Shown in pieces: positions 6,298-24,479 of a stretch of DNA of 32,666 nt. The notes under the pieces were generated by a model. It saw nothing but the letters and a program-made list of their open reading frames with translations, was not told where the DNA came from and ran no database searches. Each line of letters opens with the position of its first letter. Position 1 is the first letter of the stretch. The translations under genes and the position numbers were made by a program. The DNA is from Pseudorhodobacter antarcticus. GTDB lineage: Bacteria; Pseudomonadota; Alphaproteobacteria; Rhodobacterales; Rhodobacteraceae. The stretch spans positions 1-32,666 of the forward strand of contig CAMAQR010000040.1 in NCBI GenBank assembly GCA_945860375.1. Direction: 5' to 3'.

Positions 6298-7308
6298 ATG
6301 CCGGAAAATATCTCTTCGCTCAAGCAGTTAGCTGAGAGCAACCGACCGATCAGGATCGGTTTCATGTTGGTTCCGGACTATCCTCTCATGACGTTTTCGG
6401 CTGCCCTAGATTCGCTACGTCAGGGCAACCGGCTGGCGAAACGCAAAGTTTTTGAATGGGTGCTCATCTCTGCCGACGGAAGGGCTGTCAAGTCCAGCAG
6501 CGGTCTAGGGTTTGACGCTGACACCGCAATGGCCACTGCTCCGCGCTGTGACGTGGTGATCGCCTGCGCCGGCATCCATTACGCCGACGCCTATGACCCG
6601 GCGATCTTCGCCTGGTTCCGACGCCTGTATTCCGAAGGCTGCATTCTGGGGGCGGTCAGCACAGCAGTCTTCTTCTTCGCTAAGGCCGGTCTTCTGGAGG
6701 GCCGCCGTTGCGCGGTTCATTGGGAATCTCTGGACAGCTTTCGCAGCGAGTTTCCCAATTGTCTTGTAACGGATGATATCTTTGCCATCGACGGGCGCAT
6801 TCTGACATCCTCTGGTGGAACTGTGACGCTGGATATGATGCTGTATCTGATCGAAGCAAGCCAAGGGCGCGCGCTTGCTTCGCAGATATCGGATCAGTTC
6901 AACCATCCACGGATCCGTCGACATGACGACATACAGAAGATGAACCCCGAGGACCGATTCGGCATTCGCAACGCCAACCTGGGCTTTGTCATCCGCCGGA
7001 TGGAGGCCAGCCTGAACGTGCCGATCAACATCGAAGATCTGGCGGAAAGCACATCGCTTTCGATGCGTCAACTGGAACGGCTTTTTCTCGCGAACCTGGG
7101 AAAAAGCCCTTCAAGATTCTACATTGAGTTGCGTCTGGCACGGGCCAGAGAGTTGCTTTTGAACACCAATCTGGGCGTAGCCACGATAGCCGATATCTGC
7201 GGCTATCAGTCCGCCTCGCATTTCAGTCGGATCTATCGCCAGCATTTTCAGGAGAACCCGGCGGCCACCCGCAAGTTGGACCCAAGGTACGCACCTACTA
7301 CACTGTAA
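6298..7308 (+). CDS. GlxA-type AraC-family transcriptional regulator (DJ-1/PfpI-like N-domain)
   Basis: This 336-aa regulator has an N-terminal DJ-1/PfpI-like domain (about residues 18-200: IRIGFMLVPDYPLMTF, then DVVIACAGIHY and LEGRRCAVHWESL). A C-terminal pair of AraC helix-turn-helix motifs spans about 225-320 (INIEDLAESTSLSMRQLERLF, split by a linker from VATIADICGYQSASHFSRIYRQHF). At the site where enzymes of this superfamily carry a nucleophilic Cys, this protein reads AVSTAVFF (Ser121). This suggests a ligand-sensing rather than catalytic domain, as usual for GlxA-like regulators. GTAGGAAG precedes the ATG. It is transcribed in the same direction as, and about 200 bp ahead of, a transport and catabolic operon. 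It is therefore the likely activator of that operon, responding to the imported nitrogen compound. Related regulators in other bacteria control carnitine, glycine betaine and arginine catabolism. Confidence 0.9.
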   Translation: MPENISSLKQLAESNRPIRIGFMLVPDYPLMTFSAALDSLRQGNRLAKRKVFEWVLISADGRAVKSSSGLGFDADTAMATAPRCDVVIACAGIHYADAYDPAIFAWFRRLYSEGCILGAVSTAVFFFAKAGLLEGRRCAVHWESLDSFRSEFPNCLVTDDIFAIDGRILTSSGGTVTLDMMLYLIEASQGRALASQISDQFNHPRIRRHDDIQKMNPEDRFGIRNANLGFVIRRMEASLNVPINIEDLAESTSLSMRQLERLFLANLGKSPSRFYIELRLARARELLLNTNLGVATIADICGYQSASHFSRIYRQHFQENPAATRKLDPRYAPTTL

Positions 7309-7515
7309 CGCTGTGCAGATACTGCTGACCCGCGATGTCGTATGGCGCATAGACTATGGCGGAATCGTGCATATCGCACTTCAGCATTGATCTTTATGCC
7401 AGCAGGATGGATCGCGGAAGGGCGCTGGCCCGAAGCGGCTTTGACCGGCACAAACAACCGTCGGCGAAGTCCTAGGAAAAATACGAAACAGTATTGTGAC
7501 CAACAGGAGAATCGC

Positions 7516-9189
7516 ATGGAAAAGACCCCTCACCCCTATGTCCCTACCCTCGTCACGGACCTCAAAGCCGGCGCTATCAGCCGACGCGACTTTTTGCGCA
7601 ATGCCACTTTGCTGGGCGTATCGGCCACGGCGGCCTATGCGATGGCAGGCCTGTCGATGCCCCTTGGCATGGCCAGGGCCGATGAGATGCCCAAGGGCGG
7701 CAATCTGCGCATCGGCATGCGCTGCATGGAGATCAAGGATCCCCATCTTGTAGATTTCGCAGAAAAGTCCAACGTGATCCGGCAAGTCTGCGAATATCTG
7801 ACCCTGACGGACCGCAACAACATCACCCATCCATATCTTTTGGAAAAGTGGGAAGCAAGCGACGACCTAAAGACTTGGACGCTGTATATCCGCAAGGATG
7901 CTACATGGCGCAAGGGCGGCAAGCCGCTTAGCGCAGATGACGTGATCTGGAACCTCAAGCGCGTAGCAGATCCGGCTGTGGGTTCCTCGATGCTGGGGCT
8001 CTTCACCGGCTATCTGGTACAGGAGTTTGACACCGGCGAGAAGGACGACAAGGGTAATGCCAAGATGTCCAGCAAGCTATGGGCGGACAATGCCATCGAA
8101 AAGGTCGATGACTTCACGATCCGCTTGAATTGCTTTGCCCCGCAGATCGCTGTGCCGGAGCATTTGTTCCACTATCCGATGTTCATCCTTGACCCCGCCG
8201 AGAACGGTGCCTTTGGACCTGATGCCAACGGAACCGGCCCATTCGAGATGGTTGAATACACCGTCGGCAAGGGCGCCAAGTTCAAGGCCCGCGCCGATTA
8301 CTGGGGCGATGGCCCATACCTCGAGACGTTTGAGTATGTTGATCTGGGTGACAACGCGGGCGCCGGAATTGCGGCCATGGCCTCCAAGCAGGTCGATGGT
8401 CTGTCTGAAGCGGACGCCGTTCAGATCAGCGCCATGCAAGCCTTCCCACATGTCGCCGTCTTCAAGGTGGAAACCACACAGACCATTGTGGCCCGCATGC
8501 ACCCCGATGTCGAACAGTTCAAGGACAAGCGCGTTCGGCAGGCGATGCGCTATGCCATCGACCGCGACAAGGTGATCCAGACCGCCCTTCTGGGTGCAGG
8601 CACTCCGGCCGAGGATCATCACGTGGCGCCCTCGCATCCTGAGTATGCCGCACTTCCGAAATACGGCCGTGACATCGACAAAGCCAAGAAGTTGCTGGCC
8701 GACGCGGGCTATCCGGATGGGTTCGAATTTGACATGGTGACCCGTCCAGACCCGATCTGGGAGCTGAACACAGCCCAAGTCATGGCGGAACAGTTCAAGG
8801 ACATCGGCATCAAGATCAACATCAAGTCGCTGCCCAGCGCTCAGTATTGGGAAGTATGGATCTCGGCCCCGTTTAGCCTGACCGCTTGGGGCCACCGTCC
8901 GCTGGCGGTCATGACCCTCTCGCTTGCCTATCGCTCTAATGCTGCGTGGAACGAATCCCATTATGCCAACCCGGAGTTTGACGCGCTTCTGACCGAGGCA
9001 AATGGCATCCTCGACCGGACGGAACGCAGCAAGGTTATGGCAAAGATCGAGGCGATCATGCAGGATGACGGGCCGATCGTGCAGCCCTTCTGGCGTGTTT
9101 TCTCGACCGTGATGGACAAGAAGGTTCTGGGTTTTGAACTGCACCCATCGCAGTACATCTTCGCCCATCAATACGCAGTTTCGGCATAA
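7516..9189 (+). CDS. ABC transporter solute-binding protein, family 5, Tat-exported
   Basis: This 557-aa periplasmic binding protein of the DppA/OppA class (SBP_bac_5) captures the substrate for the permeases downstream. The N-terminus carries a twin-arginine signal (SRRDFLR, Arg23-Arg24), a hydrophobic stretch and a likely cleavage site after MARA (residue 55). Family features follow: LTLTDRNNITHPYLLEKWE, WTLYIRKDATWRKGGKPLSADDV and FKDKRVRQAMRYAIDRDKV. The start is the ATG at 7516 because CAGGAGA lies 6-8 bases upstream; an in-frame ATG at 7342 would put 58 unlikely residues ahead of the signal. The 207-bp gap before it should hold the operon promoter. In that gap I noticed only a short inverted repeat (AATAC 7480-7484, GTATT 7491-7495). 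Family 5 proteins bind peptides, nickel, opines and many other amides, so the class does not identify the ligand. Confidence 0.93.
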   Translation: MEKTPHPYVPTLVTDLKAGAISRRDFLRNATLLGVSATAAYAMAGLSMPLGMARADEMPKGGNLRIGMRCMEIKDPHLVDFAEKSNVIRQVCEYLTLTDRNNITHPYLLEKWEASDDLKTWTLYIRKDATWRKGGKPLSADDVIWNLKRVADPAVGSSMLGLFTGYLVQEFDTGEKDDKGNAKMSSKLWADNAIEKVDDFTIRLNCFAPQIAVPEHLFHYPMFILDPAENGAFGPDANGTGPFEMVEYTVGKGAKFKARADYWGDGPYLETFEYVDLGDNAGAGIAAMASKQVDGLSEADAVQISAMQAFPHVAVFKVETTQTIVARMHPDVEQFKDKRVRQAMRYAIDRDKVIQTALLGAGTPAEDHHVAPSHPEYAALPKYGRDIDKAKKLLADAGYPDGFEFDMVTRPDPIWELNTAQVMAEQFKDIGIKINIKSLPSAQYWEVWISAPFSLTAWGHRPLAVMTLSLAYRSNAAWNESHYANPEFDALLTEANGILDRTERSKVMAKIEAIMQDDGPIVQPFWRVFSTVMDKKVLGFELHPSQYIFAHQYAVSA

Positions 9190-9196
9190 CTTCTAA

Positions 9197-9232
9197 AGGT
9201 TACCCGGCAGCCTATCGCGGGTCGGGTAACCT
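9197..9232 (+). promoter_or_regulatory. Intercistronic hairpin between binding-protein and permease genes
   Basis: AGGTTACCCG (9197-9206) and CGGGTAACCT (9223-9232) are a perfect 10-bp inverted repeat with a 16-base loop, extendable by a G-T and a C-G pair. It begins 8 bases after the binding-protein stop. No T-run follows, so full termination is unlikely. Such structures commonly protect or attenuate mRNA so that the binding protein is made in excess over the membrane components. Confidence 0.6.
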
Positions 9233-9255
9233 GCCGAAACAAGGGATTACTGTCC

Positions 9256-10269
9256 ATGGTGACATTCTTGGCCAATCGCGTCGCGATGATGTTCGTGACG
9301 ATGCTCTGCGCCTCGTTCCTCGTTTTCGCAGTCTGCGAATTCACACCAGGCAGTGTGGCGCGCAAATCCTTGGGACCTTTTGCCACGCAAGAACAGGTTG
9401 ACCTGCTCAGCGTGAAGCTGAAGGCAAATGATCCTTTGCTGGTGCGCTATGGGCGCTGGTTTGGCGTTCTGGTGGGTGCCATTCCTGACCCGTTACAAGA
9501 CCCCGCCACAGGGCTCAATTTCAAGGACCAGCGCGGCGCACAGTATTTCGGCAACTTCGGCTATTCGACGCTGAACAAACTGCCGGTCAATGATGTGATC
9601 TGGGACCGGTTGGGCAACACGGCGCTCCTTGCCGGTTTAGCCTTCGCGCTGATCGTGCCGCTGTCGATCCTGTTCGGCATCCTGTCGGGGCTTAAAGAGG
9701 GTGGGCCGCTGGATCGGATCCTGTCGATCATCTGTATAATCTTCACCTCGATCCCGGAATTTGCCTCCGGAGTGTTTCTTGTGACGCTGTTTGTCATCCT
9801 GTGGCCCATTCTGCCGGGGACAAGCCCTTTAAACAGTGATGGCGGCTGGTCCATCCCATCGCAGTTCGTGCTGCCGGTGGCGGTGCTGGTCATCTATGAT
9901 TTTGGCTATGTTGCCCGCATGATCCGCGTCTCGATGATCGACGTGATGGAGCGGCCATACATTCGCACCGCCATCCTCAAGGGGATGAGCATACGGCGGG
10001 TCGTTCTGGGTCATGCCCTGCGCAATGCGATGATCGCCCCGTTCACTGTGCTTTTGTTGCAGATCAATTTCCTGGTCAGCGGCGTGGTGGTGACAGAACT
10101 AGTCTTCGCCTATCCTGGCCTTGGGCGCCTGATCCTGGAAGCGAGCCTGTTTGGCGATATAGCCACGCTGGAGGCCGCAACCCTGATAACCGTTGCCATT
10201 GCCGTAGTAACGCAGCTTCTGGGCGACATCGGCTATATGCTGCTTGATCCCCGCATCCGGGTGAGGTGA
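9256..10269 (+). CDS. ABC transporter permease, DppB/OppB type
   Basis: This 337-aa inner-membrane subunit begins with the typical first transmembrane helix (VTFLANRVAMMFVTMLCASFL), followed by the family's periplasmic loop (PGSVARKSLGPFATQEQV, and NDPLLVRYGRW). Further membrane segments span about residues 125-335. The cytoplasmic EAA loop reads AILKGMSIRRVVLGHALRNA, which contacts the ATPase. A weak ribosome-binding site (CAAGGGA) is 10 bases upstream. The periplasmic loop contains an insert (PDPLQDPATGLNFKDQRGAQ, residues about 76-95). It is followed after 3 bases by its partner permease, so the two are co-translated. It forms the heteromeric pore with the next gene product. Confidence 0.93.
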   Translation: MVTFLANRVAMMFVTMLCASFLVFAVCEFTPGSVARKSLGPFATQEQVDLLSVKLKANDPLLVRYGRWFGVLVGAIPDPLQDPATGLNFKDQRGAQYFGNFGYSTLNKLPVNDVIWDRLGNTALLAGLAFALIVPLSILFGILSGLKEGGPLDRILSIICIIFTSIPEFASGVFLVTLFVILWPILPGTSPLNSDGGWSIPSQFVLPVAVLVIYDFGYVARMIRVSMIDVMERPYIRTAILKGMSIRRVVLGHALRNAMIAPFTVLLLQINFLVSGVVVTELVFAYPGLGRLILEASLFGDIATLEAATLITVAIAVVTQLLGDIGYMLLDPRIRVR

Positions 10270-10272
10270 ACC

Positions 10273-11130
10273 ATGGCCCTGCAAGGCACTCTTCCCAAGC
10301 CAAGGACAAAGCGCCCCGGCTGGATGCGGATGTTCCAATCCAAGACGGCGACCGTGGGCCTTGCCCTTGTGGCATTCTGGGTGCTAGCCGCCCTTCTTGC
10401 GCCGATCTTGCCGCTGCCCTCGGCCACGGAATCTGACGTAATGGCGATGGGTAACCCTTACCCTTCGGCAAACCATTGGCTTGGAACGGATATTCTGGGA
10501 CGTGACGTGCTGGCGCGGCTGATCTTCGGGGCTCGAACCGTGCTTTTGGTGGCGCCCTTGTCAGTGGCAGTCGCCATGGTAGTAGGGATCACGCTGGGCA
10601 TGGTGGCGGGCTATTATGGCAGCTGGATTGATGTGCTGATCAGCCGGTTTTCCGACATCATCCTCGCTTTCCCAGTGTTGGTGATCTACGTCATTCTGAT
10701 CGCAAATATCGGTCCCTCGGTCCTGAACATCGTGATCGCCACCACGATCGCCTCGGCCCCCGGCATCGGGCGGATCACCCGCGGGCTGGTTCTGGGCCTG
10801 AAAGAGCAGGAATACATCGCTGCCGCCCGGCTACGGGCCGAAAGCACGATCTATATCATGTTGGTGGAGCTTTTGCCGAACTGCCGCAACATGCTGATCG
10901 TCGATGCATGCCTGCGCATCGGCTACACCATTATCACCATCGGCATCCTCGGCTTCCTTGGCCTCGGCCTGCCGCCGCCCAACCCTGATTGGGGCGGCAT
11001 GGTCAAGGAAAGCGTCACAGTCCTGAACGTCTGGCCACTGATGTCACTTTTTCCTTCGGCAGCACTGGTCAGCCTGGTTCTGGGCTTTAACCTTCTGGCT
11101 GATGGCATGCGAGAGGCGTGGAAACCATGA
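10273..11130 (+). CDS. ABC transporter permease, DppC/OppC type
   Basis: This 285-aa inner-membrane protein is the second half of the translocation pore. The N-terminal cytoplasmic tail (PKPRTKRPGWMRMFQSKTA) and first helix are typical, followed by the OppC_N signature (ANHWLGTDILGRDVLARLIFGART, in which GTDxxGRD is conserved). The EAA loop is about residues 178-200 (YIAAARLRAESTIYIMLVE), and the ending [16 protein letters not shown] is usual for the family. Its stop overlaps the start of the ATPase gene (ATGA), indicating translational coupling. Length is normal and no catalytic or structural element seems missing. Confidence 0.94.
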   Translation: MALQGTLPKPRTKRPGWMRMFQSKTATVGLALVAFWVLAALLAPILPLPSATESDVMAMGNPYPSANHWLGTDILGRDVLARLIFGARTVLLVAPLSVAVAMVVGITLGMVAGYYGSWIDVLISRFSDIILAFPVLVIYVILIANIGPSVLNIVIATTIASAPGIGRITRGLVLGLKEQEYIAAARLRAESTIYIMLVELLPNCRNMLIVDACLRIGYTIITIGILGFLGLGLPPPNPDWGGMVKESVTVLNVWPLMSLFPSAALVSLVLGFNLLADGMREAWKP

Positions 11131-13175
11131 ATCTGATCTCCTCCGCCCCTATACTCGACGTTAAGGACCTGCGGATTGAGTTTCGCACCAAAGCCGAGAC
11201 CGTCGTGGCGGTGCCCAGCTTGTCTTTCCATGTCAGGCCGGGCGAAAGCTATGGGCTGGTCGGCGAGTCCGGCTGTGGCAAAAGCACGACTGCCATGGCG
11301 ATCATGGGTTATCTGGGGGCGACGGGCGTCGTAGCCTCGGGCAGCATCTGCTTTGAGGGGCAAGAGCTGGTCGGCGCCAGCCAAAAAGCCTTGCGCGCCA
11401 TCCGGGGCCGGCGCATCGCCATGGTCTATCAGGACCCGATGAGCGCTTTGAACCCGGTCCAGACCATCGGCGCGCAATTGGCCGAGGTGCCGATGTTGCA
11501 TCTGGGTGCCAACCGCAGGGACGCGATGGAGATGGCCGCTGCCATGCTAGCCGATGTGCGCCTGCCCGACCCCAACGAGATGCTGCGCCGCTATCCGCAC
11601 CAGCTGTCGGGCGGCCAGCAACAACGTGTGGTAATCGCCATGGCCCTGCTGGCGCGCCCCTCGCTTCTGCTGCTGGACGAGCCTACGACCGGGCTCGACG
11701 TGACTGTTGAAGCCGCCGTGATTGACCTGATCGGCGACCTGAGGCAACGCTACGGAACAAGCCTTCTGTTCATTTCGCACAACTTAGGCCTGATCTCGGA
11801 AACCTGTGACCGCGTCGGCATCATGTATTCCGGGGAGATGGTCGAAGAGGGGACGACGGGCGACCTTTTCCGCCACCCGCGTCATCCCTACACCCAAGGG
11901 CTGATCGACTGCATCCCCGACATCCACCACGACAAAAACAGCCGCGCGCTCGCCGCCATTCCCGGCCAGATCCCGCAGCCGCAGGATCGGCCCAAGGGCT
12001 GCTTTTTCGCCCCGCGTTGCGCAGGCTTTACACCGGGCCTCTGTGACCGCGAAGATTTGGCGATGGGGCCGATTGGCCCTGGCCATCTGGTCCGCTGCGC
12101 GCGAACGACCGACATGCACTGGGACAGGCCCGTTCCCCAGCGCAGGCTGGCCCTTTCAAAGTCGCAGGGCGCGGCCCTTGCGATCACGGATCTGTCTAAG
12201 CTCTACAAGGTGGGCGGGCACAAGACGCTGAAAGCCAATGACGCGGTATCCTTCACCGCAGGTGCTGCCGAGATCGTGGCATTGGTGGGAGAATCGGGTT
12301 GCGGCAAATCCACGCTAGCGCGGATCGTAACCGGGCTGAACCGCGCAACCTCGGGTCAGATCCGGCTGGCGGATGAAGATATCGCCCGGCTTCAGGTCAA
12401 GGACCGCCCACGCCCGCTGCTGCAAGCGGTGCAGATGATCTTCCAGAACCCGGACAGCACGCTCAATCCCTCGCATTCGGCGGCCTTTTCGATCCGCCGG
12501 TCGATCAAGAAGTTCGGCGTGCGCGTCGGCAAGGCCGCCATCGACCAAAGGGTGCGTGAACTGCTGGAGATGGTGCGCCTGTCGCCTGCGCTGGCCGACT
12601 GCAAGCCCAGCCAGCTTTCGGGCGGCCAGAAACAGCGCATCGCCATCGCCCGCGCCTTTGCCGCCAACCCCGCGCTGATCGTGGCGGATGAGCCGGTCTC
12701 GGCACTCGACGTCTCGGTTCAGGCGGCAGTGGTGACGCTGCTTCTGGACATCCAGCGCGAAAAACACACGACCATGCTGTTTATCAGCCATGATCTGGCA
12801 CTGGTGCGGCATGTGGCGGACAAAGTCGTGGTCATGTACCTTGGCAAGGTCATGGAGCAGGGCACTGTAGAAGAGGTCTTCGGTGGCGACAGTCACCCCT
12901 ACACCGAGGCGCTGATCTCCGCCATCCGCAGTCCTAACCCGGATGATCGCTCGCGTGACCGCATCCACCTGACGGGTGACACGCCCAGCCCGGTCAATGT
13001 GCCCGCCGGGTGCCGCTTTGCCACCCGCTGCCATCGCAAGCTTGGTGCGCTGTGCGACACCGTGCCGCCGCCCATCCGCAAGCTTTCGCCCAGCCATGAG
13101 ATATCCTGCCATATCGAAACGGCGGACCTGCGTCATGCCGCACTGTCCGTTACTGAAGGATTGGCTATATCATGA
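11127..13175 (+). CDS. Fused double ABC ATPase, DppD-DppF type
   Basis: This 682-aa cytoplasmic protein carries both nucleotide-binding domains of a peptide-class importer on one chain. Domain 1 has Walker [10 protein letters not shown] (46-54), signature LSGGQQQR (about 160) and Walker B LLLLDEP (about 180). Domain 2 has Walker [10 protein letters not shown] (about 387), signature LSGGQKQR (about 497) and Walker B LIVADEP (about 518). Each half ends with an oligopeptide-transporter C-terminal segment containing cysteines ([26 protein letters not shown]), possible Fe-S or metal ligands as in DppD-type subunits. The ATG at 11127 overlaps the permease stop as ATGA and has GAGAGG upstream, so I prefer it to the GTG at 11118. 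Fusions of this kind (as in YejF and GsiA) are known. It powers import through the two permeases before it. Confidence 0.94.
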
Positions 13176-13208
13176 CCCACATCCCGCTTGCCGTGACGGA
13201 GCCTTGCC

Positions 13209-14642: not shown

Positions 14643-15412
14643 CTGGCTTGCCGGATCCGATGAGCGCACGGCTGGCCGGCAAGGTGATCCTGATCACCGG
14701 GGCTGCCAGCGGAATTGGAGCGGCAATTGCCACGCGATGTTTGGTCGAAGGCGCAAATGTCGTCTGTACCGACCGGTCGGCGGATCAGGTGGTGGCCTTG
14801 GCCGAGGCCTTTGGGCATGCAGCCTTTGGCATACAGTGCGATGTGACCGACAGCGCCTCGCTTGACCGCGTGGTAGCAGCGGCGAAGGCGCACTTCGGGC
14901 GGCTCGACGGGTTGGTGCATAACGCCGCAGCCCCCTCCAAAGACGGGACCGCGGTCGATCTGGATCTGGCCCAGTGGCGGCTGGAACTGGACGTGTCGTT
15001 GACCGGTGCCTTTCTGGCAAGCAAGGCGGCGCTGCCCCTGATGATCGCGGGCGGCGGCGGGTCGGTGGTCTTCATCGCCTCGCAATTTGCCCATGTCGCG
15101 GTGGGCAGGGCGGTCGCTTACTGCGCGGCCAAGGCGGGGCTGGTGCATCTGGCCAAAGCGATGGCGGTGGATCACGCGGCGGACGGCATCCGCGTGAATT
15201 CGCTTTCCCCCGGTGCGGTGGCCACGGCGCGGCTTTTGCAGCGTTGGCCGGATCTGGAGGCCGCGGACAAGGCCCTTGGCCCGGCGCATCTGCTGGGCCG
15301 GATCGCCCAACCGCCCGAGATTGCCGCCGCCGCTGCCTTTCTTCTGTCGGCCGATGCCTCCTTTGTCACCGGCACAGATCTTCTTGTGGATGGCGGCTAC
15401 GCGACAGCCTGA
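14639..15412 (+). CDS. Short-chain dehydrogenase/reductase (classical SDR)
   Basis: This 257-aa cytoplasmic NAD(P)-dependent oxidoreductase has the Rossmann motif TGAASGIG (20-27), structural motif HNAAA (about 94-98), catalytic Ser148 (IASQF), Tyr161 and Lys165 (YCAAK), and a C-terminal VTGTDLLVDGGYA. Asp at the end of strand 2 (CTDRSA) suggests a preference for NAD(H). It is translationally coupled to the hydantoinase gene by an ATGA overlap. A second Met at residue 8 is possible but less likely. The likely role is oxidation or reduction of a hydroxy/keto intermediate of the pathway; the substrate is unknown. Confidence 0.9.
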   Translation: MTGLPDPMSARLAGKVILITGAASGIGAAIATRCLVEGANVVCTDRSADQVVALAEAFGHAAFGIQCDVTDSASLDRVVAAAKAHFGRLDGLVHNAAAPSKDGTAVDLDLAQWRLELDVSLTGAFLASKAALPLMIAGGGGSVVFIASQFAHVAVGRAVAYCAAKAGLVHLAKAMAVDHAADGIRVNSLSPGAVATARLLQRWPDLEAADKALGPAHLLGRIAQPPEIAAAAAFLLSADASFVTGTDLLVDGGYATA

Positions 15413-15440
15413 ATATGACTGAAATGGATTGGATGTTTCG

Positions 15441-16484
15441 ATGACCCTTCTTGTGACCGGTGGAACTGGCTTCGTGATGAGCGTCTTGGTACGCGCCTGG
15501 CTGGACCGTGATGCGCAGGCCAAGGCCGTGATCCTCGACCGCTCTGGCCCAGATGCAATGGCCGAACGGTTCTTCGCCTCGGTGCGCGACCGGCTGACAG
15601 TTATCAGCGCCGATGTGCTGCAACCGGATCAATGGGCCAAGGCGATCGATGACCACGACATTTCCGCCGTTGTGCATGGCGCCACCATCACCCCCATCTC
15701 TCGCGGAACAGCCGGTGAGGCCAAGCGCCAGCCTGAGGCTGAGGATCCGGCGCGCATCGTCGATGTGAATCTGATGGGCACCGTGCGCCTTCTGGAATGG
15801 GCGCGCCAAAGGCCGGCCGTGAAGCGGTTCGTCTACGTCAGCTCTGGCTCTGTCTATCGCCATAACGGCCCGGATTGGGCCTCAGAGCCTTTGCCGGAAG
15901 ATGGCTATGTGGCTCCCCTGACGCTGTACGGTATTTCCAAATTCGCCGCGGAGATGGTGGTGAACCGCTATGCCGACCTTTTTGGGATGTCGGCGCTTTC
16001 GGTCAGGCTCGCCTCGGTTTATGGTCCTATGGACCGCGCCACGGAAAGCCGCAACTTCCGTCACGTTCCCAACCGCGTGGCCCATATGGCCCTGGCGGGA
16101 GAGGTAATCCGCCCCAACGCGCTGGACCCGGTGGGGGACTATGTGCATTCCGCCGATGTGGCGCAGGCGATCATCGCCCTTCTGGCCACCACAGACCTGC
16201 GATATCGCCATTACAACATCGGCAGCGGCACGACCTCCACGATCGGTGAGGTGATCGGCTGGGCCCGCGAAAAGGTACCCGGCTTGAAGGTCGAGGTCAG
16301 CCCGCCTGAGAGCGCCAACGTCATTCAGGACTCAGCGCTTAAAGGCGGCATGTGGGGCGCCTATGATACCGCCCGGATCGAGCGTGACACCCAATGGCGC
16401 GCCCGCACCGGCAAGACCGCCTTTCACGACTACATGGATTGGATCCTCGCTAACGAGGGTGCACCGCAGGGGAGGAAGCTCTGA
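15441..16484 (+). CDS. NAD-dependent epimerase/dehydratase family protein (extended SDR)
   Basis: This 347-aa cytoplasmic protein has an extended-SDR fold: nucleotide-binding VTGGTGFV (5-12), DADV-like acidic site ISADVL, catalytic Ser region YVSSGSVY (132-139) and Tyr163-Lys167 (YGISK). The third glycine of GxxGxxG is replaced by Met (GGTGFVMS), which may loosen dinucleotide binding. The ATG at 15441 is chosen over an in-frame TTG four codons earlier. Its stop overlaps the next start (TGATG). The C-terminal half (HSADVAQAIIALL, IGSGTTSTIGEVI) is that of sugar-nucleotide epimerases. In this operon an action on a small polyol or carbamoyl compound rather than a sugar nucleotide is possible. 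Confidence 0.88.
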   Translation: MTLLVTGGTGFVMSVLVRAWLDRDAQAKAVILDRSGPDAMAERFFASVRDRLTVISADVLQPDQWAKAIDDHDISAVVHGATITPISRGTAGEAKRQPEAEDPARIVDVNLMGTVRLLEWARQRPAVKRFVYVSSGSVYRHNGPDWASEPLPEDGYVAPLTLYGISKFAAEMVVNRYADLFGMSALSVRLASVYGPMDRATESRNFRHVPNRVAHMALAGEVIRPNALDPVGDYVHSADVAQAIIALLATTDLRYRHYNIGSGTTSTIGEVIGWAREKVPGLKVEVSPPESANVIQDSALKGGMWGAYDTARIERDTQWRARTGKTAFHDYMDWILANEGAPQGRKL

Positions 16485-17407
16485 TGTCCGCCAAGAACAG
16501 TCTAACCACCACCGAACACCAGCCGCGCGATTTCGTGGGCTATGGGCCGAACCCGCCCCGAGTCACCTGGCCGGGCGGTGTCAAACTCGCTATCAATCTG
16601 GTGTTAAACTACGAGGAAGGGGCGGAGTATTCTTGGCTTGACGACGGGCGCAACGACAATTGGGGGGAATACAACATCCCCAACAGCCCGCCGGTCCGCG
16701 ATCTGGGCACTGAGACGCATTTTGAATATGGTAGCCGCGCCGGGGTCTGGCGTCTGGCCCGGCTGTTTGACCGCTATCAGATTCCGGTCACCGTCTCGGC
16801 CTGTGCCGTGGCGCTGCAAAAGAACCCAGCGGTGGTCGAGTGGATGAACGCGCGCGGCCATGACCTTCTGGGCCACGGCCTGCGGTGGAGCGAATACTCC
16901 ACCCTGCCGCGGGAGGAAGAAGAGCGTCAGTTGCATGAAGCCCTAGCCCTTTACAAGGAACTGACCGGGCGGCGTCCGATGGGCTGGAACTGCCGGTCCT
17001 TTCCCAGCGTGAACACCCGCGACCTGATCGTGCGTGAGGGCGGGTTCCTGTATTATTCCGACCCCTGCAACGACGATTTGCCCTATTTCATGGATCACGC
17101 CGGCACCCAGCTTTTGGTTGTGCCATATTCCAAGACGCTGAACGACAGCCGCTTTCTCATTGCCCCCGGCTACAGCAATCCGCGCGACTTTGCTGAAGAC
17201 TGCCGCGCGGCCATCAACTACATGGTTGAAGAGGCCGACGAAGCGGGTGGCCGGATGCTGACCATCTGTGTCCATGCCCGCTGGATGGGCCAACCCAACC
17301 GTGCCATGGGCCTGCGCGATGTGATCGACCATGTCACCAAGGTTCCCGGCGCCGCATTCATGCGGCGTGAGGATATTGCCCGGCATTGGTTGGCGCATCA
17401 TGGCTGA
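16484..17407 (+). CDS. PuuE-like polysaccharide-deacetylase-fold protein (allantoinase-like)
   Basis: This 307-aa cytoplasmic protein is of the NodB/polysaccharide-deacetylase fold. It carries the variant motif seen in PuuE-type allantoinases: NYEEGAE (42-48) in place of the Asp-Asp motif, and HDLLGHG (126-132). A PuuE-like N-terminus (RDFVGYGPNPPRVTWPGG) and tail (LTICVHARWMGQPNRA, then an arginine-rich REDIARHW) complete the match. PuuE enzymes hydrolyse allantoin to allantoate without the classical amidohydrolase metal site; others in the family act on related cyclic amides. There is no signal peptide, which argues against a cell-wall role. The start overlaps the preceding stop by one base. 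Together with two amidohydrolases it makes this operon unusually rich in ring-opening candidates. The exact substrate is not deducible. Confidence 0.9.
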   Translation: MSAKNSLTTTEHQPRDFVGYGPNPPRVTWPGGVKLAINLVLNYEEGAEYSWLDDGRNDNWGEYNIPNSPPVRDLGTETHFEYGSRAGVWRLARLFDRYQIPVTVSACAVALQKNPAVVEWMNARGHDLLGHGLRWSEYSTLPREEEERQLHEALALYKELTGRRPMGWNCRSFPSVNTRDLIVREGGFLYYSDPCNDDLPYFMDHAGTQLLVVPYSKTLNDSRFLIAPGYSNPRDFAEDCRAAINYMVEEADEAGGRMLTICVHARWMGQPNRAMGLRDVIDHVTKVPGAAFMRREDIARHWLAHHG

Positions 17408-19106
17408 AAGAACCCTGCTGCCCAAAGCGGGCCGGACCGAACCGGCACAGGATCTTTCGGAGGGGCGAATTCTGACTGGCGCACAGATGGTGGCGGCGAT
17501 TCTCAAGCAAGAGGGGGTCCGCCAGATCATCGGCTTTCCCAACAGTGAACTGTTTGACGCCGCCGCCGCCCTTGATATTCCACCCGTAATCACCCGCACT
17601 CCCCGCGTTGCAGCCAATATCGCGGAAGGTTATGCCCGCACCGCTCCCGAAGCCGGGCTTGCCGTGGTGACGGTGCAATATGGCCCGGGTGCTGAAAGTG
17701 CCTTTGGCGGCATCGCGCAGGCCTATAACGACGGTGCGCCGATCCTGTTTCTGCCCACCGGCTATCCGCGCGGGTCAGAGGCGGTGGCACCCAACTTTCA
17801 TGCCAGCCGCAACTTTCGCCATATCACCAAATGGGCCGAAACCGCCAGCAAGGTAGAACACTTGCCCAAGCTGATGCACACGGCCATCTCTCGCGTGCGC
17901 AATGGCCGCCCAGCACCCGTCTTGCTGGAATTGCCGGTGGATCTTTTGGCCGAGGGGCTGGATCCCGCCATGCAGGCCTATCAATGTCCTCGGCGCAGTC
18001 TGCCGCAGGCGGATGCGGCAGAGGTTAGCGAAATGCTCTCCGTTCTTCTGGCAGCGCAAAACCCGGTGATTTTTGCCGGGCAAGGCGTGCTGGCCAGCGG
18101 CGCAACAACAGACCTTGTCCGCTTTGCAGAGGCGATGCAGATCCCGGTCATGACCACGCCCAATGGCAAGAGCGGCTTTCCCGAGAATCATCCGCTGGCG
18201 CTTGGCACTGCCGGGCGAGCGCGTCCGGCCACGGTGGATCATTTCATGGACAAAGCAGACGTGGTGCTGGCCCTGGGCACCAGCCTCACTCGCTCGCACT
18301 ACATCCTTCCCATCGCCAAGGATAAAGTCCTGCTGCAGGTGTCGATCGAACCGGGGGATCTGGGCAAGGATTACCCGGTCGCCCAAGGCATCGTGGGCGA
18401 TGCCTGCGCAGTTCTCAAACAGATGGTCGCGCTGATCGCGAACCGCGGGTTACTCCCCTTGGGCCGTGAAGGGCTTGCTACCGAAATAGGTCAAGTCCGC
18501 GCAGCGTTTCTGCGACGCTGGATGCCGCATCTTCTGGCCGACAGCGACCCGATTTCGCCTTACCGCGTGGTGTGGGAGATCATGCAAGCGCTGGACCCTG
18601 CCACCTCCATCGTCACGCATGATGCAGGCAATCCACGCGATCAGTTCACCCCCTTCTATCAGGCGACCGCTCCGGGCAGCTATATAGGCTGGGGCAAAAC
18701 CACTCAGCTCGGCAGCGGACTGGGATTTGCGCTGGGCGCCAAGCTGGCGAGGCCAGAGGCGACGGTGGTCAACCTGATGGGCGAATCCGCCTTTGGCATG
18801 GTGGCCGGGGATTTTGAAACTGCCATCCGCTGCAATTTGCCGATCCTGACCGTGGTTTTGCGCAACAATGTGCTGGGCGGCTATTCAGCCAGCATGCCGG
18901 TCGCCACGCGCAAATACGGCGCAAACCGCATGTCCGGCGCCTATGCCCCGATTGCCGAGGCTTTGGGCGGGCATGGCGAATGCGTCACCCTCGCCGGAAA
19001 TATCCGCCCCGCCTTGCTGAGCGCCCTGACCCGCGTCCGTCAAGGGCAAGCCGCCTTGGTCGAAGTTGTGACCCACGAAGAACCCCGCCTTGCCGGGCTG
19101 TGTTGA
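17400..19106 (+). CDS. Thiamine diphosphate-dependent enzyme, acetolactate-synthase-like, altered catalytic Glu
   Basis: This 568-aa protein has the three domains of the POX/ALS superfamily: N-terminal Pyr domain (about 25-195), central domain (about 215-340, VIFAGQGVLASGATTDLVRF) and C-terminal PP domain (about 390-568). The ThDP/Mg motif runs from GESAFGM (Gly461) to RNN (489-490), with Glu462 where the family has Asp. At the position of the invariant Pyr-domain Glu (as in RHEQAAAFMADGYAR) the protein reads TRTPRVAANIAEGYAR, placing Pro68 there. Glyoxylate carboligase is known to have Val at this site, so loss of Glu does not exclude activity. The ATG at 17400 overlaps the deacetylase gene by 8 bases; an in-frame start at 17331 would bury 23 residues inside that gene. 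The likely role is ligation or decarboxylation of a 2-oxo acid made by the operon. Confidence 0.88.
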   Translation: MAERTLLPKAGRTEPAQDLSEGRILTGAQMVAAILKQEGVRQIIGFPNSELFDAAAALDIPPVITRTPRVAANIAEGYARTAPEAGLAVVTVQYGPGAESAFGGIAQAYNDGAPILFLPTGYPRGSEAVAPNFHASRNFRHITKWAETASKVEHLPKLMHTAISRVRNGRPAPVLLELPVDLLAEGLDPAMQAYQCPRRSLPQADAAEVSEMLSVLLAAQNPVIFAGQGVLASGATTDLVRFAEAMQIPVMTTPNGKSGFPENHPLALGTAGRARPATVDHFMDKADVVLALGTSLTRSHYILPIAKDKVLLQVSIEPGDLGKDYPVAQGIVGDACAVLKQMVALIANRGLLPLGREGLATEIGQVRAAFLRRWMPHLLADSDPISPYRVVWEIMQALDPATSIVTHDAGNPRDQFTPFYQATAPGSYIGWGKTTQLGSGLGFALGAKLARPEATVVNLMGESAFGMVAGDFETAIRCNLPILTVVLRNNVLGGYSASMPVATRKYGANRMSGAYAPIAEALGGHGECVTLAGNIRPALLSALTRVRQGQAALVEVVTHEEPRLAGLC

Positions 19107-19124
19107 ACTTGGGAAGGAAATCGC

Positions 19125-20459
19125 ATGTTTGACCTGATCCTTTCCGGCGGCACCGTCGTCAATGCCACGGGCAGCACCCGCGCCGATGTGGCCATCAGCG
19201 GCGAGCGTGTGATGGCCCTGCTGCCGCCCGACATGGTGGCCGTGGCGCGGCGGCGCGAGGACGTCACGGGCAAGCATCTGCTGCCTGGCCTCGTTGATGC
19301 CCATGCCCATCTGCGCGACCCCGGCCTGACGCATAAAGAGGATTTCACCTCTGGCACCACGGCGGCGGCCTTGGGTGGCATGACTACGGTCTTGGACATG
19401 CCGACCGATGACCCGTGGACCGATACGGCAGCGCGGCTGGCCAACAAGATGGCGCGAGCGGCGGGGCGACTTCAGGTCGATGTGGGATTTCAGGCTGTGC
19501 TGACCCAAGGTCTGGCCGAGGCCGAGGCGCTGATCGTCCTGCGTCCCGTCTCGCTGGAACTCTTCACCGCCGATGTGCCGCCCGAATTCATGTTCGACAG
19601 TTTGGAGAGCATTAGTCAGGCGCTGAAGGCGCTGGCGTCGAAGGACATGCTGATTGGCGTCTCTCCGGGCGATCAGTCGATTTTGGTGGGCAGTGCCGCG
19701 CGGGACAAGGGCCGCGACATCGCGGCCTTTCTGGCAAGTCGTCCACCCTTGGCGGAGGCCGGGGGCATCGCCCGCGCGCTGATCGCCGGGGCGGATGCCG
19801 GGGGGCACATCCATGTCCGGCAGATCAACTCTGCCGCTGGTGTCGCGGTATGGCGCCGCCTGCGCGACCTGTGCGACGCAAGTGTCGAGACCATGCCGCA
19901 GAACCTTTTCTTCACCGCCGAGGATTACGCGATGCAGGGCGCAGGCCTGAAAGGTTCTCCTCCGCTGCGGGAAAAGCGCGATGTGGAAGCATTGCGGGCG
20001 GCCCTGTCCGAAGGGTTGATCGACATGGTGGCTACCGATCATGCCCCCCATGCTCCAGCAGAAAAGGCCATGCAATACAAGGCGTTTTCCGACATTCCGG
20101 GCGGGATGCCGGGGATGCAGACCCTGCTTGCCACTATGTTGAAACTGGTGGGCGAAGGGGTGATCGGCCTGCCTGATGTCGCGCGCATGTGCGCCTTTAC
20201 CCCGGCCCGGCGCTTTGGTTTGGGCGGCAGCAAAGGAGCGATTGCGCCCGGCATGGATGCCGATATCGCGGTGATCGACATGGAGCAGACCTCGGTCATC
20301 CGCCACGACGATCAAGCTTCCAAGGCAGGATATACGCCGTTTGACGGCTGGATCATTCCAGCCCGCTTGACCGATGTTTTCTTGCGTGGCACCCACATCG
20401 TGCGGGATGGCGCACTGATTGCCGCTGGTCACGGCCGCGTTGTCACCCGCCAGACATGA
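19125..20459 (+). CDS. Dihydroorotase/allantoinase-like amidohydrolase with degenerate metal site
   Basis: This 444-aa amidohydrolase resembles AllB/PyrC throughout: LILSGGTVVNA, DAHAHLRDPG (His60, His62), ATDHAPHAPAEK (Asp305), then PGMDADIAVID and a closing YTPFDGWIIPARLTDVFLRG. Aligned by eye to E. coli allantoinase, three binuclear-centre ligands are replaced. The bridging Lys in FKCF is Glu145 in LELF, the His of VHCEN is Ser180 in VSPGD, and the His of LHVCHVSS is Gln233 in IHVRQINS. HxH and the Asp remain, so it may bind one metal or have changed chemistry. The length is normal and the frame intact, with GGAAGGAAA upstream, so it is not a decaying gene. It could be a ring hydrolase with an unusual site or a non-catalytic partner of the hydantoinase. 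Confidence 0.88.
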   Translation: MFDLILSGGTVVNATGSTRADVAISGERVMALLPPDMVAVARRREDVTGKHLLPGLVDAHAHLRDPGLTHKEDFTSGTTAAALGGMTTVLDMPTDDPWTDTAARLANKMARAAGRLQVDVGFQAVLTQGLAEAEALIVLRPVSLELFTADVPPEFMFDSLESISQALKALASKDMLIGVSPGDQSILVGSAARDKGRDIAAFLASRPPLAEAGGIARALIAGADAGGHIHVRQINSAAGVAVWRRLRDLCDASVETMPQNLFFTAEDYAMQGAGLKGSPPLREKRDVEALRAALSEGLIDMVATDHAPHAPAEKAMQYKAFSDIPGGMPGMQTLLATMLKLVGEGVIGLPDVARMCAFTPARRFGLGGSKGAIAPGMDADIAVIDMEQTSVIRHDDQASKAGYTPFDGWIIPARLTDVFLRGTHIVRDGALIAAGHGRVVTRQT

Positions 20460-20469
20460 AGGACAGCCC

Positions 20470-21243
20470 ATGCCCCTTTTGCTCAACAAGGTCGCCATCA
20501 TCACCGGCGCAAGCTCTGGACTCGGGCGGGCCATCGCCCTGCGCTATGCCAGAGAAGGCGCCAGCGTGGTGATCGCCGATGTCATCGAATCGCCGATTGA
20601 AGGCGGGGAGCCTACCGCAGACCTGATCCGTGCTGGCGGGGGAAAAGCGCTGTTCCTCAAAACCGATATCGCTCTGTGGGAGGACGTCGATGCATTGGTG
20701 AGACAGGCGACGGCTGACTTCGGTCGCCTGGATCTGATGGTGAACAACGCGGCCATCTACACCTCCACTACCTTGCTGCAAACCACGCCAGAGCAGTGGG
20801 GGCAGGTGATCGGCGTCAACCTGACCGGGTTCTTTTACTGCTGCAAACGCGCCACCCAACAGTTTCTGACGCAAGATCCAGTGCAACATGTGCGGGGGCG
20901 GATCATCAATATCTCATCCCAGCACGGCATGGTCGCCTGTCCCGGCGATTTTCCTTACGGGGTCAGCAAGGGCGGCATCGTGCAGATGACGCGGCAGATC
21001 GCCGTGGATCATGCCGACGATGGAATCATCTGCAACGCGATAGCACCCGGCAAGATCATCACCGGAAAGCCAGGAATCGCCAATGATCCCAACGCTTTGG
21101 AATATTCCCGCCGGCGCACCCCCTGGCCCCGCCTTGGCCAGCCCGAGGATGTGGCGGGGGCAGCCCTTTTTCTTGCCAGCGACATGGCGAGCTACATCAC
21201 AGGCGTGAACCTTATGGTGGATGGCGGCTGGATGGCCGGCTGA
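20470..21243 (+). CDS. Short-chain dehydrogenase/reductase (classical SDR)
   Basis: This 257-aa cytoplasmic oxidoreductase has ITGASSGLG (11-19), VNNAA (91-95), catalytic Ser149/150 (NISSQHG), Tyr163 and Lys167 (YGVSK), and the usual C-terminal ITGVNLMVDGGW. Asp37 after strand 2 (IADVIE) suggests NAD. The ATG at 20470 has AAGGA at a good distance and lies 10 bases after the preceding stop; an in-frame start at 20419 would overlap that gene. It is one of three SDRs in the operon, and this one has a complete catalytic triad. Confidence 0.9.
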   Translation: MPLLLNKVAIITGASSGLGRAIALRYAREGASVVIADVIESPIEGGEPTADLIRAGGGKALFLKTDIALWEDVDALVRQATADFGRLDLMVNNAAIYTSTTLLQTTPEQWGQVIGVNLTGFFYCCKRATQQFLTQDPVQHVRGRIINISSQHGMVACPGDFPYGVSKGGIVQMTRQIAVDHADDGIICNAIAPGKIITGKPGIANDPNALEYSRRRTPWPRLGQPEDVAGAALFLASDMASYITGVNLMVDGGWMAG

Positions 21244-21291
21244 CCCACGCTTTCACCAATAAACCGGATAGGCCGGAGGAAAGGATACATT

Positions 21292-22077
21292 ATGGATCTT
21301 GGGATCAAGGGTAAAACCGCGCTGGTTTTGGGCGCAGGCGGCGGGCTGGGCGGGGCCATCGCCCGCACGCTCGCAGCCGAAGGCGCTCAGGTGGCCGTGG
21401 CCGACATAAACAAGGAAGCCGCAGACAAGACCGTGGCCGATATCACCTCTAGCGGAGGCCGGGCTGTGGCGCTCGTATGGGATCTGGGCGATCTGTCGGT
21501 GATCGGCCCCAACCTCGCTGCGGTTGAGGCCGCCTTTGGCACAGTCGATATTTTGGTCAACATCACGGGTGGCCCGCCGCCGACGCTGGTGTCGGGCCAG
21601 TCGGCGGACTCTTGGCGCAAGTACTTTGACGCTATGGTTCTGTCCGTCATCGCCATCAGCGACGCTGCCTTGCCGGGGATGAAGGCCAAGGGCTGGGGGC
21701 GCATCATCACCTCCACCTCCTCGGGGGTTGTCGCGCCCATCGCCAATTTGGGCCTGTCGAACGCGCTGCGGATGTCGCTTCTGGGTTGGTCCAAGACCCT
21801 TGCGGGCGAGGTGGGACGCGATGGGATCACCGCAAACATCGTGCTACCGGGTCGCGTGGCCACCCAGCGCATCGCCTTTCTGGACGAACAGAAGGCCAAG
21901 CGTGAGGGTAAGGCGGTGGTCGATATCTCTGCCGCCAGCACGGCCTCTATCCCGGTGGGGCGCTACGGCGATCCGCAGGAATATGCGGATGTTGTGGCCT
22001 TTCTGGCCAGCGCGCGCGCTTCTTACCTGACTGGATCGGTGATCCGGGTCGACGGTGGGTTGATCGCCAGCGTATGA
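21292..22077 (+). CDS. SDR-fold protein with altered YxxxK (SxxxR)
   Basis: This 261-aa SDR has a clear dinucleotide motif, LGAGGGLGGAIA (about 13-24), Asp38 after strand 2 (VADIN), the NxxG-like ITGGPPP, Ser143/144 (STSSG) and a normal C-terminal LTGSVIRVDGGL. At the catalytic YxxxK position it reads LSNALR, putting Ser156 and Arg160 in place of Tyr and Lys. A similar Ser/Arg pattern occurs in a known minority subgroup of SDRs annotated as oxoacyl-reductases, whose chemistry is poorly defined. A strong GGAGGAAAGG precedes the ATG. It is the last gene of the operon and is followed by a hairpin. Confidence 0.87.
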   Translation: MDLGIKGKTALVLGAGGGLGGAIARTLAAEGAQVAVADINKEAADKTVADITSSGGRAVALVWDLGDLSVIGPNLAAVEAAFGTVDILVNITGGPPPTLVSGQSADSWRKYFDAMVLSVIAISDAALPGMKAKGWGRIITSTSSGVVAPIANLGLSNALRMSLLGWSKTLAGEVGRDGITANIVLPGRVATQRIAFLDEQKAKREGKAVVDISAASTASIPVGRYGDPQEYADVVAFLASARASYLTGSVIRVDGGLIASV

Positions 22078-22732: not shown

Positions 22733-23413
22733 TTAACGGTATCCGCCAGAAATTGGAATAAGTGCTCCGGTCATGTAACTCGACGCTGGCCCGAGTAGGA
22801 ACATTACAAGGTCTGCAATTTCGGATGGTGCAGCTGCTCTCCCGAGTGGGATTTCAGGCAGTGCGCCGGCATATTGCTCGGGCGTGAGCAAGGCGTGTCC
22901 CATTGGGCCTTCGACAAGTCCCGGACAGATCGCGTTTATCCGGATGCGACGTGCTCCAAAATCGAATGCAAGGTGGCGTACCATTCCGTTCACGGCCCAT
23001 TTACTCGCGGTATAATGTGGACCGCCTACGGGGCTGTGGTCGAATGCAGCCGTCGATGAAACGACAACAATCGATGCGCCATCGCGCAAGCTCGGCAGCG
23101 CAGTGTGGATGATCGCATAAAGGCTGTTGATGTTCACATCCATCATTCGGCACCAGCGATCAGGCGGAACATTCTCGATCGGCCCCGGCTCAAGGATGCC
23201 GTGCGCCAGCACGACCCCGTCAAGTGGTGCAGCGACCGACTTTACCGCTTTGGCGAGCGCATCAAAGTCGGTGAAATCGGCGACAATACTTGCATCCTCC
23301 CCAGGCAAATGCGCGAGGCCGATAACTTCGTCGCCTGAGGCACGCAGAGCGTGAAGAGCACCAGTTCCAATGCTTCCGCCGATGCCGGTAAGGAGTATCC
23401 TCCGAGCTGCCAT
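22733..23413 (-). CDS. Short-chain dehydrogenase/reductase (SDR)
   Basis: This 226-aa SDR has LLTGIGGSIGTGAL (7-20), catalytic Ser120 (VVSST), Tyr134 and Lys138 (YTASK), NAICPGLVEGPM and a C-terminal YMTGALIPISGGY. Strand 2 is followed by AHLPGED rather than the usual Asp- or Arg-rich loop, so the cofactor preference is unclear. AAAGGAGA lies 8 bases before the chosen ATG; an in-frame start 11 codons earlier would include the ribosome-binding site. It follows the DapA-like gene by 64 bases on the same strand and is probably co-transcribed, acting on the aldol product or substrate of that enzyme. Confidence 0.9.
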   Translation of the reverse strand: MAARRILLTGIGGSIGTGALHALRASGDEVIGLAHLPGEDASIVADFTDFDALAKAVKSVAAPLDGVVLAHGILEPGPIENVPPDRWCRMMDVNINSLYAIIHTALPSLRDGASIVVVSSTAAFDHSPVGGPHYTASKWAVNGMVRHLAFDFGARRIRINAICPGLVEGPMGHALLTPEQYAGALPEIPLGRAAAPSEIADLVMFLLGPASSYMTGALIPISGGYR

Positions 23414-23477
23414 GTGGTGCGTCTCCTTTTCCTGTTTTTGTCGCACGGGTCTACCCGCGGTGTCCCACGGTGCACGC

Positions 23478-24452: not shown

Positions 24453-24479
24453 TCTAATATTGTTGCATGTAGCATATCA

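Follow-up and report, generated by a model that had tools for sequence, protein, structure and literature searches.

A recurrent import and ring-opening gene cassette of Pseudorhodobacter antarcticus as a candidate operon for cyclic ureide or imide catabolism

Results

Gene content of the locus

The window analysed here is a stretch of 32,666 nucleotides from Pseudorhodobacter antarcticus (contig CAMAQR010000040.1 of assembly GCA_945860375.1). At positions 6298 to 22077 it holds a cassette of import and enzyme genes, which a preliminary description made from the sequence alone had taken for an operon acting on a cyclic ureide or a related nitrogen heterocycle. We confirmed 13 open reading frames (ORFs) there, contiguous, all on the plus strand and at the coordinates described. 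Assignment by Pfam and NCBIfam bore out the described gene set: a GlxA regulator, a complete Dpp-class importer of the ATP-binding cassette (ABC) type and eight enzymes on one strand, namely a hydantoinase (HydA), a PuuE-like protein, a second cyclic amidohydrolase of the allantoinase/dihydroorotase type (DHO-like), a thiamine diphosphate (ThDP) enzyme and four dehydrogenase-type proteins, three of them classical short-chain dehydrogenases (SDR1 to SDR3) and one extended (extSDR). As also described, the 13 ORFs include neither an N-carbamoylase (M20 or CN_hydrolase) nor a urease or an allantoate amidohydrolase. Comparison with annotated relatives led us to revise the start sites of the solute-binding protein (SBP; 7516, was 7342), the ThDP enzyme (17400, was 17331) and SDR2 (20470, was 20419), and placed that of extSDR probably at 15441. 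The features are as follows.

6298..7308, plus strand: AraC-family regulator with a DJ-1/PfpI domain, GlxA/GbdR-like (Pfam HTH_18 and DJ-1_PfpI)
7335..7361, plus strand: putative operator, tandem direct repeat ATGKCG-N6-GCA (pattern match, 21-bp period)
7516..9189, plus strand: Dpp-class SBP with a twin-arginine-like leader, SRRDFLRN (SBP_bac_5, 242 bits)
9256..10269, plus strand: ABC permease, DppB type (Pfam; 79-92% identity in 16 orthologues)
10273..11130, plus strand: ABC permease, DppC type (Pfam)
11118..13175, plus strand: fused two-domain ABC ATPase, DppD-DppF type (two ABC_tran and two oligo_HPY stretches)
13209..14642, plus strand: HydA, D-hydantoinase/dihydropyrimidinase (TIGR02033 and NF009941, above cut-off)
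14639..15412, plus strand: SDR1, classical short-chain dehydrogenase (adh_short_C2, 219 bits)
15441..16484, plus strand: extSDR, extended (epimerase-type) SDR with YxxxK kept (Epimerase, 142 bits)
16484..17407, plus strand: PuuE-like CE4-fold protein, divergent from PuuE (TIGR03212, below cut-off)
17400..19106, plus strand: ThDP enzyme, PRK06154 family, with Pro68 at the canonical catalytic Glu (NF004807)
19125..20459, plus strand: DHO-like protein, allantoinase/dihydroorotase fold with a changed metal site (homologue alignment, profile alignment and model)
20470..21243, plus strand: SDR2, classical SDR (family match), 10 bp past the stop of the DHO-like gene
21292..22077, plus strand: SDR3, classical SDR (family match), the least co-inherited member

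The genes are closely packed. The couplings by ATGA or TGATG that had been described throughout the enzyme genes hold at two strict junctions only, HydA/SDR1 (ATGA) and extSDR/PuuE (TGATG). Elsewhere, overlaps of 8 bp (PuuE/ThDP) and 13 bp (permease/ATPase) were found, and the remaining gaps between enzyme genes are 10-48 bp. The GC content is 0.628 over the enzyme genes and 0.592 over the regulator and importer genes, with flanks at 0.575 and 0.573.

Recurrence of the cassette

A tblastn search of 72,556 plasmid records with the ThDP enzyme matched 1566 records, 16 of them at 60-80% identity and the next, among the matches listed, at 45%. In the same records HydA gave 16 matches at 80-90%, all others being below 60% (next listed 59%), and extSDR (E ≤ 1e-20) gave 16 at 60-80% and eight others, the best at 31.5%. 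The three lists consist of the same 16 accessions, so each of these records carries all three of the markers on which we tested co-occurrence. When genome contigs were scanned with the ThDP protein, 16 loci were obtained, 11 close (65-78%, one being the plasmid of Rhizobium johnstonii 3841 again) and five at 39-42%; these loci begin inside the SBP gene (10-kb flank), with the regulator outside the view, and the visible gene order in the close ones is that of the window.

In all, 18 non-duplicate loci including the window share this arrangement, hereafter architecture A, in Rhizobium, Neorhizobium, Paracoccus, Burkholderia and others. Because the gene order recurs in 18 loci, the cassette is not a chance assembly. 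The copy in R. johnstonii 3841 spans RL_RS33595-RL_RS33530, and the Burkholderia copy is split over two contigs, its SDR2 and SDR3 genes being about 1.1 kb apart. A further copy lies on pAMI1 of Paracoccus aminophilus, a plasmid that can be lost and of whose genes 40% concern amino-acid transport and metabolism, according to the available part of its description (PMC3925955).

Genome samples were drawn around two centres picked as cassette carriers, Rhizobium lusitanum (G001) and a Burkholderia (G004). Among 394 sampled genomes of the R. lusitanum family, the DHO-like protein (E ≤ 1e-90) occurs in five, G001 being one of them, and extSDR (E ≤ 1e-30) in the same five. Among 300 genomes of the order of Burkholderia, the DHO-like protein (E ≤ 1e-70) was found in five, of which the centre genome alone has the cassette.

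Co-inheritance was followed by pairwise distances in ortholog sets defined by at least 55% identity and at least 80% coverage, where cut loci were lost from some genes and L014, L028, L029 and L030 were excluded; L014 and L016, copies of L001 and L051, were left out of the distance and site alignments. Across 16 loci, and with no control gene from outside the cassette, the distances of HydA, SDR1, extSDR, PuuE, ThDP, DHO and SDR2 correlate at 0.77-0.95, and those of SDR3 with the other cassette genes at 0.42-0.58.

Both the gene set and its recurrence support the described operon as a self-contained unit for import and degradation with ring-opening amidohydrolases. Most likely, it is a conserved gene set of several soil and plant-associated bacteria for the import and breakdown of a ring-shaped nitrogen compound. 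No characterised operon with the same gene set turned up in open-licence PMC papers, subscription papers lying outside this search.

Altered active sites of the ThDP enzyme and the DHO-like protein

The ThDP enzyme belongs to family PRK06154/NF004807 (798.3 bits, cut-off 607). At the position of the canonical catalytic Glu it has Pro68, and among the best 120 of 7972 homologues this position is Pro in 47 and Gln in 73, that is, non-Glu in 120 of 120. Residue positions in this enzyme, in the DHO-like protein, in HydA and in the PuuE-like protein were taken from automatic alignments and checked by hhalign and HMMER; the latter places the Pro opposite the Glu of BbmA. In the decarboxylase superfamily, the accessible text of a survey (PMC3534367) gives Glu51 in 94% and Val in 3% of members, Val being characteristic of glyoxylate carboligase, and on these figures the remaining few per cent may hold other Glu-less families. 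The cassette enzyme shares with glyoxylate carboligase the missing Glu51, but it has Pro or Gln instead of Val and scores 192.7 bits against the glyoxylate carboligase model NF008431, whose cut-off is 791. Since Glu is kept in all seven ThDP relatives at 40-48% identity, its loss in the cassette enzyme looks independent of that in glyoxylate carboligase.

In the DHO-like protein the metal-site positions are H60, H62, E145, S180, Q233 and D305, a mapping confirmed by profile comparison with HydA (hhalign). The HxH motif and the Asp are retained; Glu145 replaces the carbamylated Lys, and Ser180 and Gln233 replace two metal-binding His, in 120 of 120 sequences (the best 120 of 526 homologues). 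The same combination of Glu, Ser/Thr and Gln is also found in homologues at 43-44% identity from two Burkholderiales, encoded close to racemase-like (22-28%) and M20 genes, and homologues at 36-37% keep the normal residues. The protein is under the cut-offs of TIGR03178 (278.5 against 357.85) and, as a near miss, of TIGR00857 (275 against 279.05). Its predicted structure (pLDDT 79.6), with Escherichia coli allantoinase 8hfd as the best structural match (template modelling score, TM, 0.87), places the fold in the allantoinase/hydantoinase group. As the substitutions are strictly conserved, the protein is probably repurposed rather than dead, with a working but changed site.

HydA and the PuuE-like protein

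HydA scores above cut-off in both TIGR02033 (508.4, cut-off 393.25) and NF009941 (678, cut-off 647). The binuclear metal site of D-hydantoinases and dihydropyrimidinases consists of HxH, Lys, His, His and Asp, and all of these ligands are present in the 18 sequences aligned (17 cassette copies and one Azospirillum homologue). Comparison with the structures 3cl6 and 1z7a (235-240 bits) clearly relates the PuuE-like protein to PuuE, yet this protein is below the PuuE cut-off of TIGR03212 (277.8 against 424.6). Relative to 3cl6 the cassette protein carries altered motifs, NCRSFPSVNTR in 17 of 17 cassette copies and HARWMGQPNR in 16 of 17 (one M to S). In all eight cassette genomes tested, a canonical PuuE above cut-off is encoded elsewhere, suggesting that the cassette protein is probably not the housekeeping allantoinase and does another job.

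Regulator, putative operator and importer

The best NCBIfam match of the regulator is GbdR, at 296.7 bits under a cut-off of 480. Regulators of the AraC/GATase1 type such as ArgR bind direct repeats of the TGTCG type. Between the regulator and SBP genes, upstream of the importer, lies the tandem repeat at 7335-7361, whose pattern matches once in the window where shuffling gives 0.05 expected matches, the pattern having been derived afterwards from the same loci. The exact repeat stands at the equivalent place in six of the ten other loci covering this stretch, all six from Rhizobiaceae and four from the R. leguminosarum group, with near-matches in L002, L042 and L051.

As to the importer, the SBP matches only generic peptide, opine and nickel binders and gave no clue to the substrate. 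A carrier of the major facilitator superfamily (MFS) is encoded between the ATPase and HydA in 16 of the 18 loci; the window and the Burkholderia copy are without it. In R. ruizarguesonis TP23 (L006, 6547-8645) the importer ATPase is unannotated and aligns over 71% only, and may be a broken gene.

A shorter variant and the core module

Two of the five carriers in the R. lusitanum family (G001 and G353) have architecture A; the other three (L043, L044 and L045) have a shorter architecture, variant B, of which 18.5-19 kb each were examined. Variant B retains the order SDR1-extSDR-PuuE-DHO and has an MFS carrier that shares 52% identity with the one in architecture A. SDR2 is present in L043 and L045 and was not found in the fetched stretch of L044, and neither the ThDP enzyme nor an orthologous Dpp importer is encoded within the 18.5-19 kb. 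The core module is therefore MFS-SDR1-extSDR-PuuE-DHO(-SDR2) plus a hydantoinase, the Dpp importer, the ThDP enzyme and SDR3 being optional.

Near the cassette, all three variant-B loci carry genes for a hydantoinase (43-45%), a CN_hydrolase, a DAO-family protein, an M20 hydrolase of the N-carbamoylase type (in L043, PRK12891 at 473 bits, cut-off 461) and an MttB-family protein. RidA is encoded in L043 and L044, and FrhB-type and isochorismatase-type genes are found in L043 and L045; FrhB homologues showed no consistent gene context. Because N-carbamoylase-type hydrolases lie near variant B, a missing N-carbamoylase is not a defining feature of the system: its absence belongs to architecture A. 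Ring opening followed by N-carbamoyl removal, as the variant-B gene set would allow, fits cyclic ureides.

An SBP 35-36% identical to that of the window is encoded on the same contig in two of the three variant-B genomes. The stretches concerned (L078 and L079), no more than about 30 kb from the cassettes, also hold a further PuuE homologue and weak homologues of GcvT (26-27%) and DAO (27-28%). In G353 a paralogous set (L080) comprises a GlxA-type regulator (39%), a Dpp importer, HydA (43%), an SDR (36% to SDR3) and PuuE, with no match to extSDR, the ThDP enzyme or the DHO-like protein within the 12 kb fetched.

Relatives of extSDR in other operons

YGISK and D33 of extSDR are invariant in 21 sequences, and in a fold search its model (pLDDT 70) matched generic epimerases and dehydratases. 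Distant relatives (29-32%) are encoded close to HydA in Klebsiella pneumoniae pKPN-80a, Aminobacter and Skermanella; the region of pKPN-80a (L060) holds an ECF-type transporter, extSDR, RidA, PuuE, HydA, two M20 hydrolases and a cytosine-type permease. Just upstream of the Neorhizobium petrolearium cassette is an operon of AllA-like, PuuE-like (40%), extSDR (29%) and SDR (56% to SDR2) genes.

In a class-level sample, extSDR matches were obtained in 31 of 385 genomes, and 13 loci from ten of these 31 were inspected. L068 has an adjacent PuuE homologue (37%), L075 has SDRs and a Dpp importer, and in L072 a ThDP homologue (48%) lies about 3 kb off, next to an extSDR (42%) with stops inside the matching stretch; the other loci showed no cassette-like neighbour. 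These loci speak against extSDR alone marking ureide operons. An 82% extSDR homologue from a eukaryote protein set (P0250) is possibly bacterial contamination.

Flanking regions

The flanks of the cassette vary by genus, a downstream sugar operon being common to three of the four annotated plasmids of the R. leguminosarum group. In the window, the SulP transporter gene at 2273-3763 has its best plasmid DNA matches in Rhodobacterales (77-79%) while the cassette is nearest to rhizobial copies, which suggests that the cassette was transferred into this host.

Positions 4149-4196 resemble the 3' half of a tRNA-Met gene and match Acetobacter and Phyllobacterium plasmid records at 100% over 47-49 bp; ARAGORN and Rfam give no gene here, and there is no complete tRNA in the window. 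This is perhaps the remnant of an attachment site, marking the edge of an island 2 kb upstream of the cassette. A Fic/DOC-domain protein is encoded on the minus strand (4345-5922) between this fragment and the regulator. Downstream, a second module (22733-32294), partly similar to a stretch in Roseomonas haemaphysalidis, contains genes for an SDR, a DHDPS-family protein, a GntR/FCD regulator, a class-I glutamine amidotransferase, an SBP_bac_8 ABC importer, an M24 peptidase-type protein and an amidohydrolase.

Discussion

Proposed pathway

We propose, at a rough probability of 0.6, that the cassette is a self-contained operon, moved by horizontal transfer, for the catabolism of a cyclic ureide or cyclic imide with an oxidisable hydroxyl or side chain. 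We infer the reactions from the protein families, and likewise their order and the type of compound that serves as substrate. A small ligand would activate the GlxA-type regulator, which would bind the repeat at 7335-7361 and turn on the importer-enzyme transcript; the substrate would be taken up by the Dpp-class importer and, in most relatives, also by the MFS carrier. SDR1, extSDR and SDR2 would then oxidise hydroxyl or carbinolamide positions, so that amide carbonyls are made or exposed, and HydA, the PuuE-like and the DHO-like enzymes would open successive C-N bonds. The resulting short 2-oxo acid would be cleaved or coupled by the ThDP enzyme, working without the canonical Glu as glyoxylate carboligase does, and the product would be reduced or oxidised by SDR3. 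On this reading, the unit would be a ureide/imide catabolic operon set apart by an uncommon combination of genes and by two active sites of unusual make-up.

More tentatively, this may be an undescribed pathway for cyclic nitrogen compounds in which two enzymes independently dropped textbook residues: one from a further ThDP family that, like glyoxylate carboligase, manages without Glu51 and would couple or cleave a 2-oxo acid derived from the ring, the other an allantoinase-fold hydrolase that would use Glu instead of the carbamylated Lys, with at most one metal.

Comparison with known pathways

Hydantoin utilisation operons consist of a hydantoinase, an N-carbamoylase and a racemase. The cassette resembles them in its D-hydantoinase-family HydA and dedicated importer, and variant B also in the nearby M20 carbamoylase-type gene; however, the unit of the window has neither N-carbamoylase nor racemase and adds four SDRs, the PuuE-like and DHO-like proteins and the ThDP enzyme. 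As regards the reductive and Rut pathways of pyrimidine degradation, no dihydropyrimidine dehydrogenase, beta-ureidopropionase or RutA-B is encoded among the 13 ORFs.

Two pathways provide precedents for a logic of import, oxidation, ring opening and a ThDP step. In lumichrome catabolism of Nocardioides simplex, as far as the accessible text goes (PMC12746152), hydrolytic opening of the pyrimidine ring is followed by ThDP-dependent decarboxylation, as we propose here; its two-subunit ThDP decarboxylase, P450, xanthine-oxidase-type and Rieske enzymes, however, have no counterpart in the window unit. In fungal nicotinate catabolism (HxnW-HxnM-HxnN), oxidation by an SDR precedes a ring-opening CE4-type imidase, according to the available part of the report (PMC9304392), whereas the window unit has a CE4 protein of a different branch and a ThDP enzyme instead of an amidase.

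Evidence weighing against the proposal and alternative explanations

Several observations count against the proposed operon. The ThDP enzyme is missing from variant B, and relatives of it at about 40% identity (40-45%) adjoin unrelated genes in diverse contexts. Distant relatives of extSDR (29-32%) in Antarctobacter and Ponticoccus lie beside ThDP and SDR genes without amidohydrolases, and a HydA homologue is present in none of the 13 class-level loci inspected. The DHO-like protein, short of three of six metal ligands, may be a scaffold and not a catalyst, in which case the three amidohydrolase-type proteins are not all catalysts. A canonical glyoxylate carboligase exceeds its cut-off in one of five variant-A and two of three variant-B genomes, tiny numbers, from genomes of unstated completeness, that hint at replacement. 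Transporters, regulator, neighbours and the R. leguminosarum papers gave no pointer to a substrate; in the accessible text of PMC3333776 and PMC11103875 the pRL120 tags are other ones, and pRL12010-pRL12013, tags guessed from position, returned no papers. Legume-specific amino acids, pterins, the thiamine pyrimidine, riboflavin and pseudouridine were considered as substrates and set aside, as the unit has no matching genes.

The allantoin pathway comprises PuuE or AllB, AllC, AllA, Gcl and GlxR, and the cassette could be this purine-ureide pathway in disguise, with the PuuE-like and DHO-like proteins as allantoinases and the ThDP enzyme as a non-orthologous glyoxylate carboligase disposing of glyoxylate. 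The unit does contain two allantoinase-type folds, the DHO-like model being closest to E. coli allantoinase, and a ThDP enzyme lacking Glu as glyoxylate carboligase does (in the accessible text of PMC3534367); the canonical carboligase is not above cut-off in four of five variant-A genomes, and the AllA-like gene upstream of the N. petrolearium cassette points the same way. Nevertheless, we consider this rather unlikely: the PuuE-like protein is below the family cut-off while canonical PuuE is encoded elsewhere in all eight genomes, the metal site of the DHO-like protein is changed, the ThDP enzyme is far below the carboligase cut-off, and no AllC (allantoate amidohydrolase), allantoicase, AllA or other ureidoglycolate enzyme, or urease is found among the 13 ORFs. 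The four SDRs would also be left without a role.

Unlikely, too, is an N-methylated substrate resembling N-methylhydantoin or an N-methylpyrimidine, to be demethylated by MttB-, DAO- or GcvT-type enzymes encoded near the cassette (variant B) or elsewhere (architecture A). MttB- and DAO-family genes in all three variant-B loci speak for it, as do the weak GcvT and DAO homologues and the SBP resembling that of the window, which in two of them share the cassette's contig at a distance of up to about 30 kb, and a GcvT gene in the HydA-extSDR region of Aminobacter. None of these genes, however, lies in the window unit or in the flanks covered for annotated variant-A loci, and MttB could be part of some other pathway.

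A hydroxylated cyclic imide or piperidine-dione from the breakdown of a pyridine-type N-heterocycle, handled as by HxnW-HxnM-HxnN, is improbable: it would share the logic of SDR plus CE4-type imidase (available part of PMC9304392), and a Skermanella operon joins an asparaginase with HydA, extSDR and a CE4 protein, but the cassette PuuE is nearer to PuuE (3cl6, 235 bits) than to the imidase-like HP0310 (3qbu, 45 bits), and the unit has no amidase.

Implications

If the proposed role in cyclic ureide or imide catabolism is borne out, the operon would give rhizosphere bacteria a transferable pathway for a nitrogen source and would put a function on the PRK06154 ThDP family. As a copy is present in the sequenced laboratory strain R. 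johnstonii 3841, routine screens of growth, transcripts and ligands can reveal the substrate. The altered sites of the DHO-like and ThDP enzymes would be two natural tests of how far catalytic residues held to be essential can be replaced.

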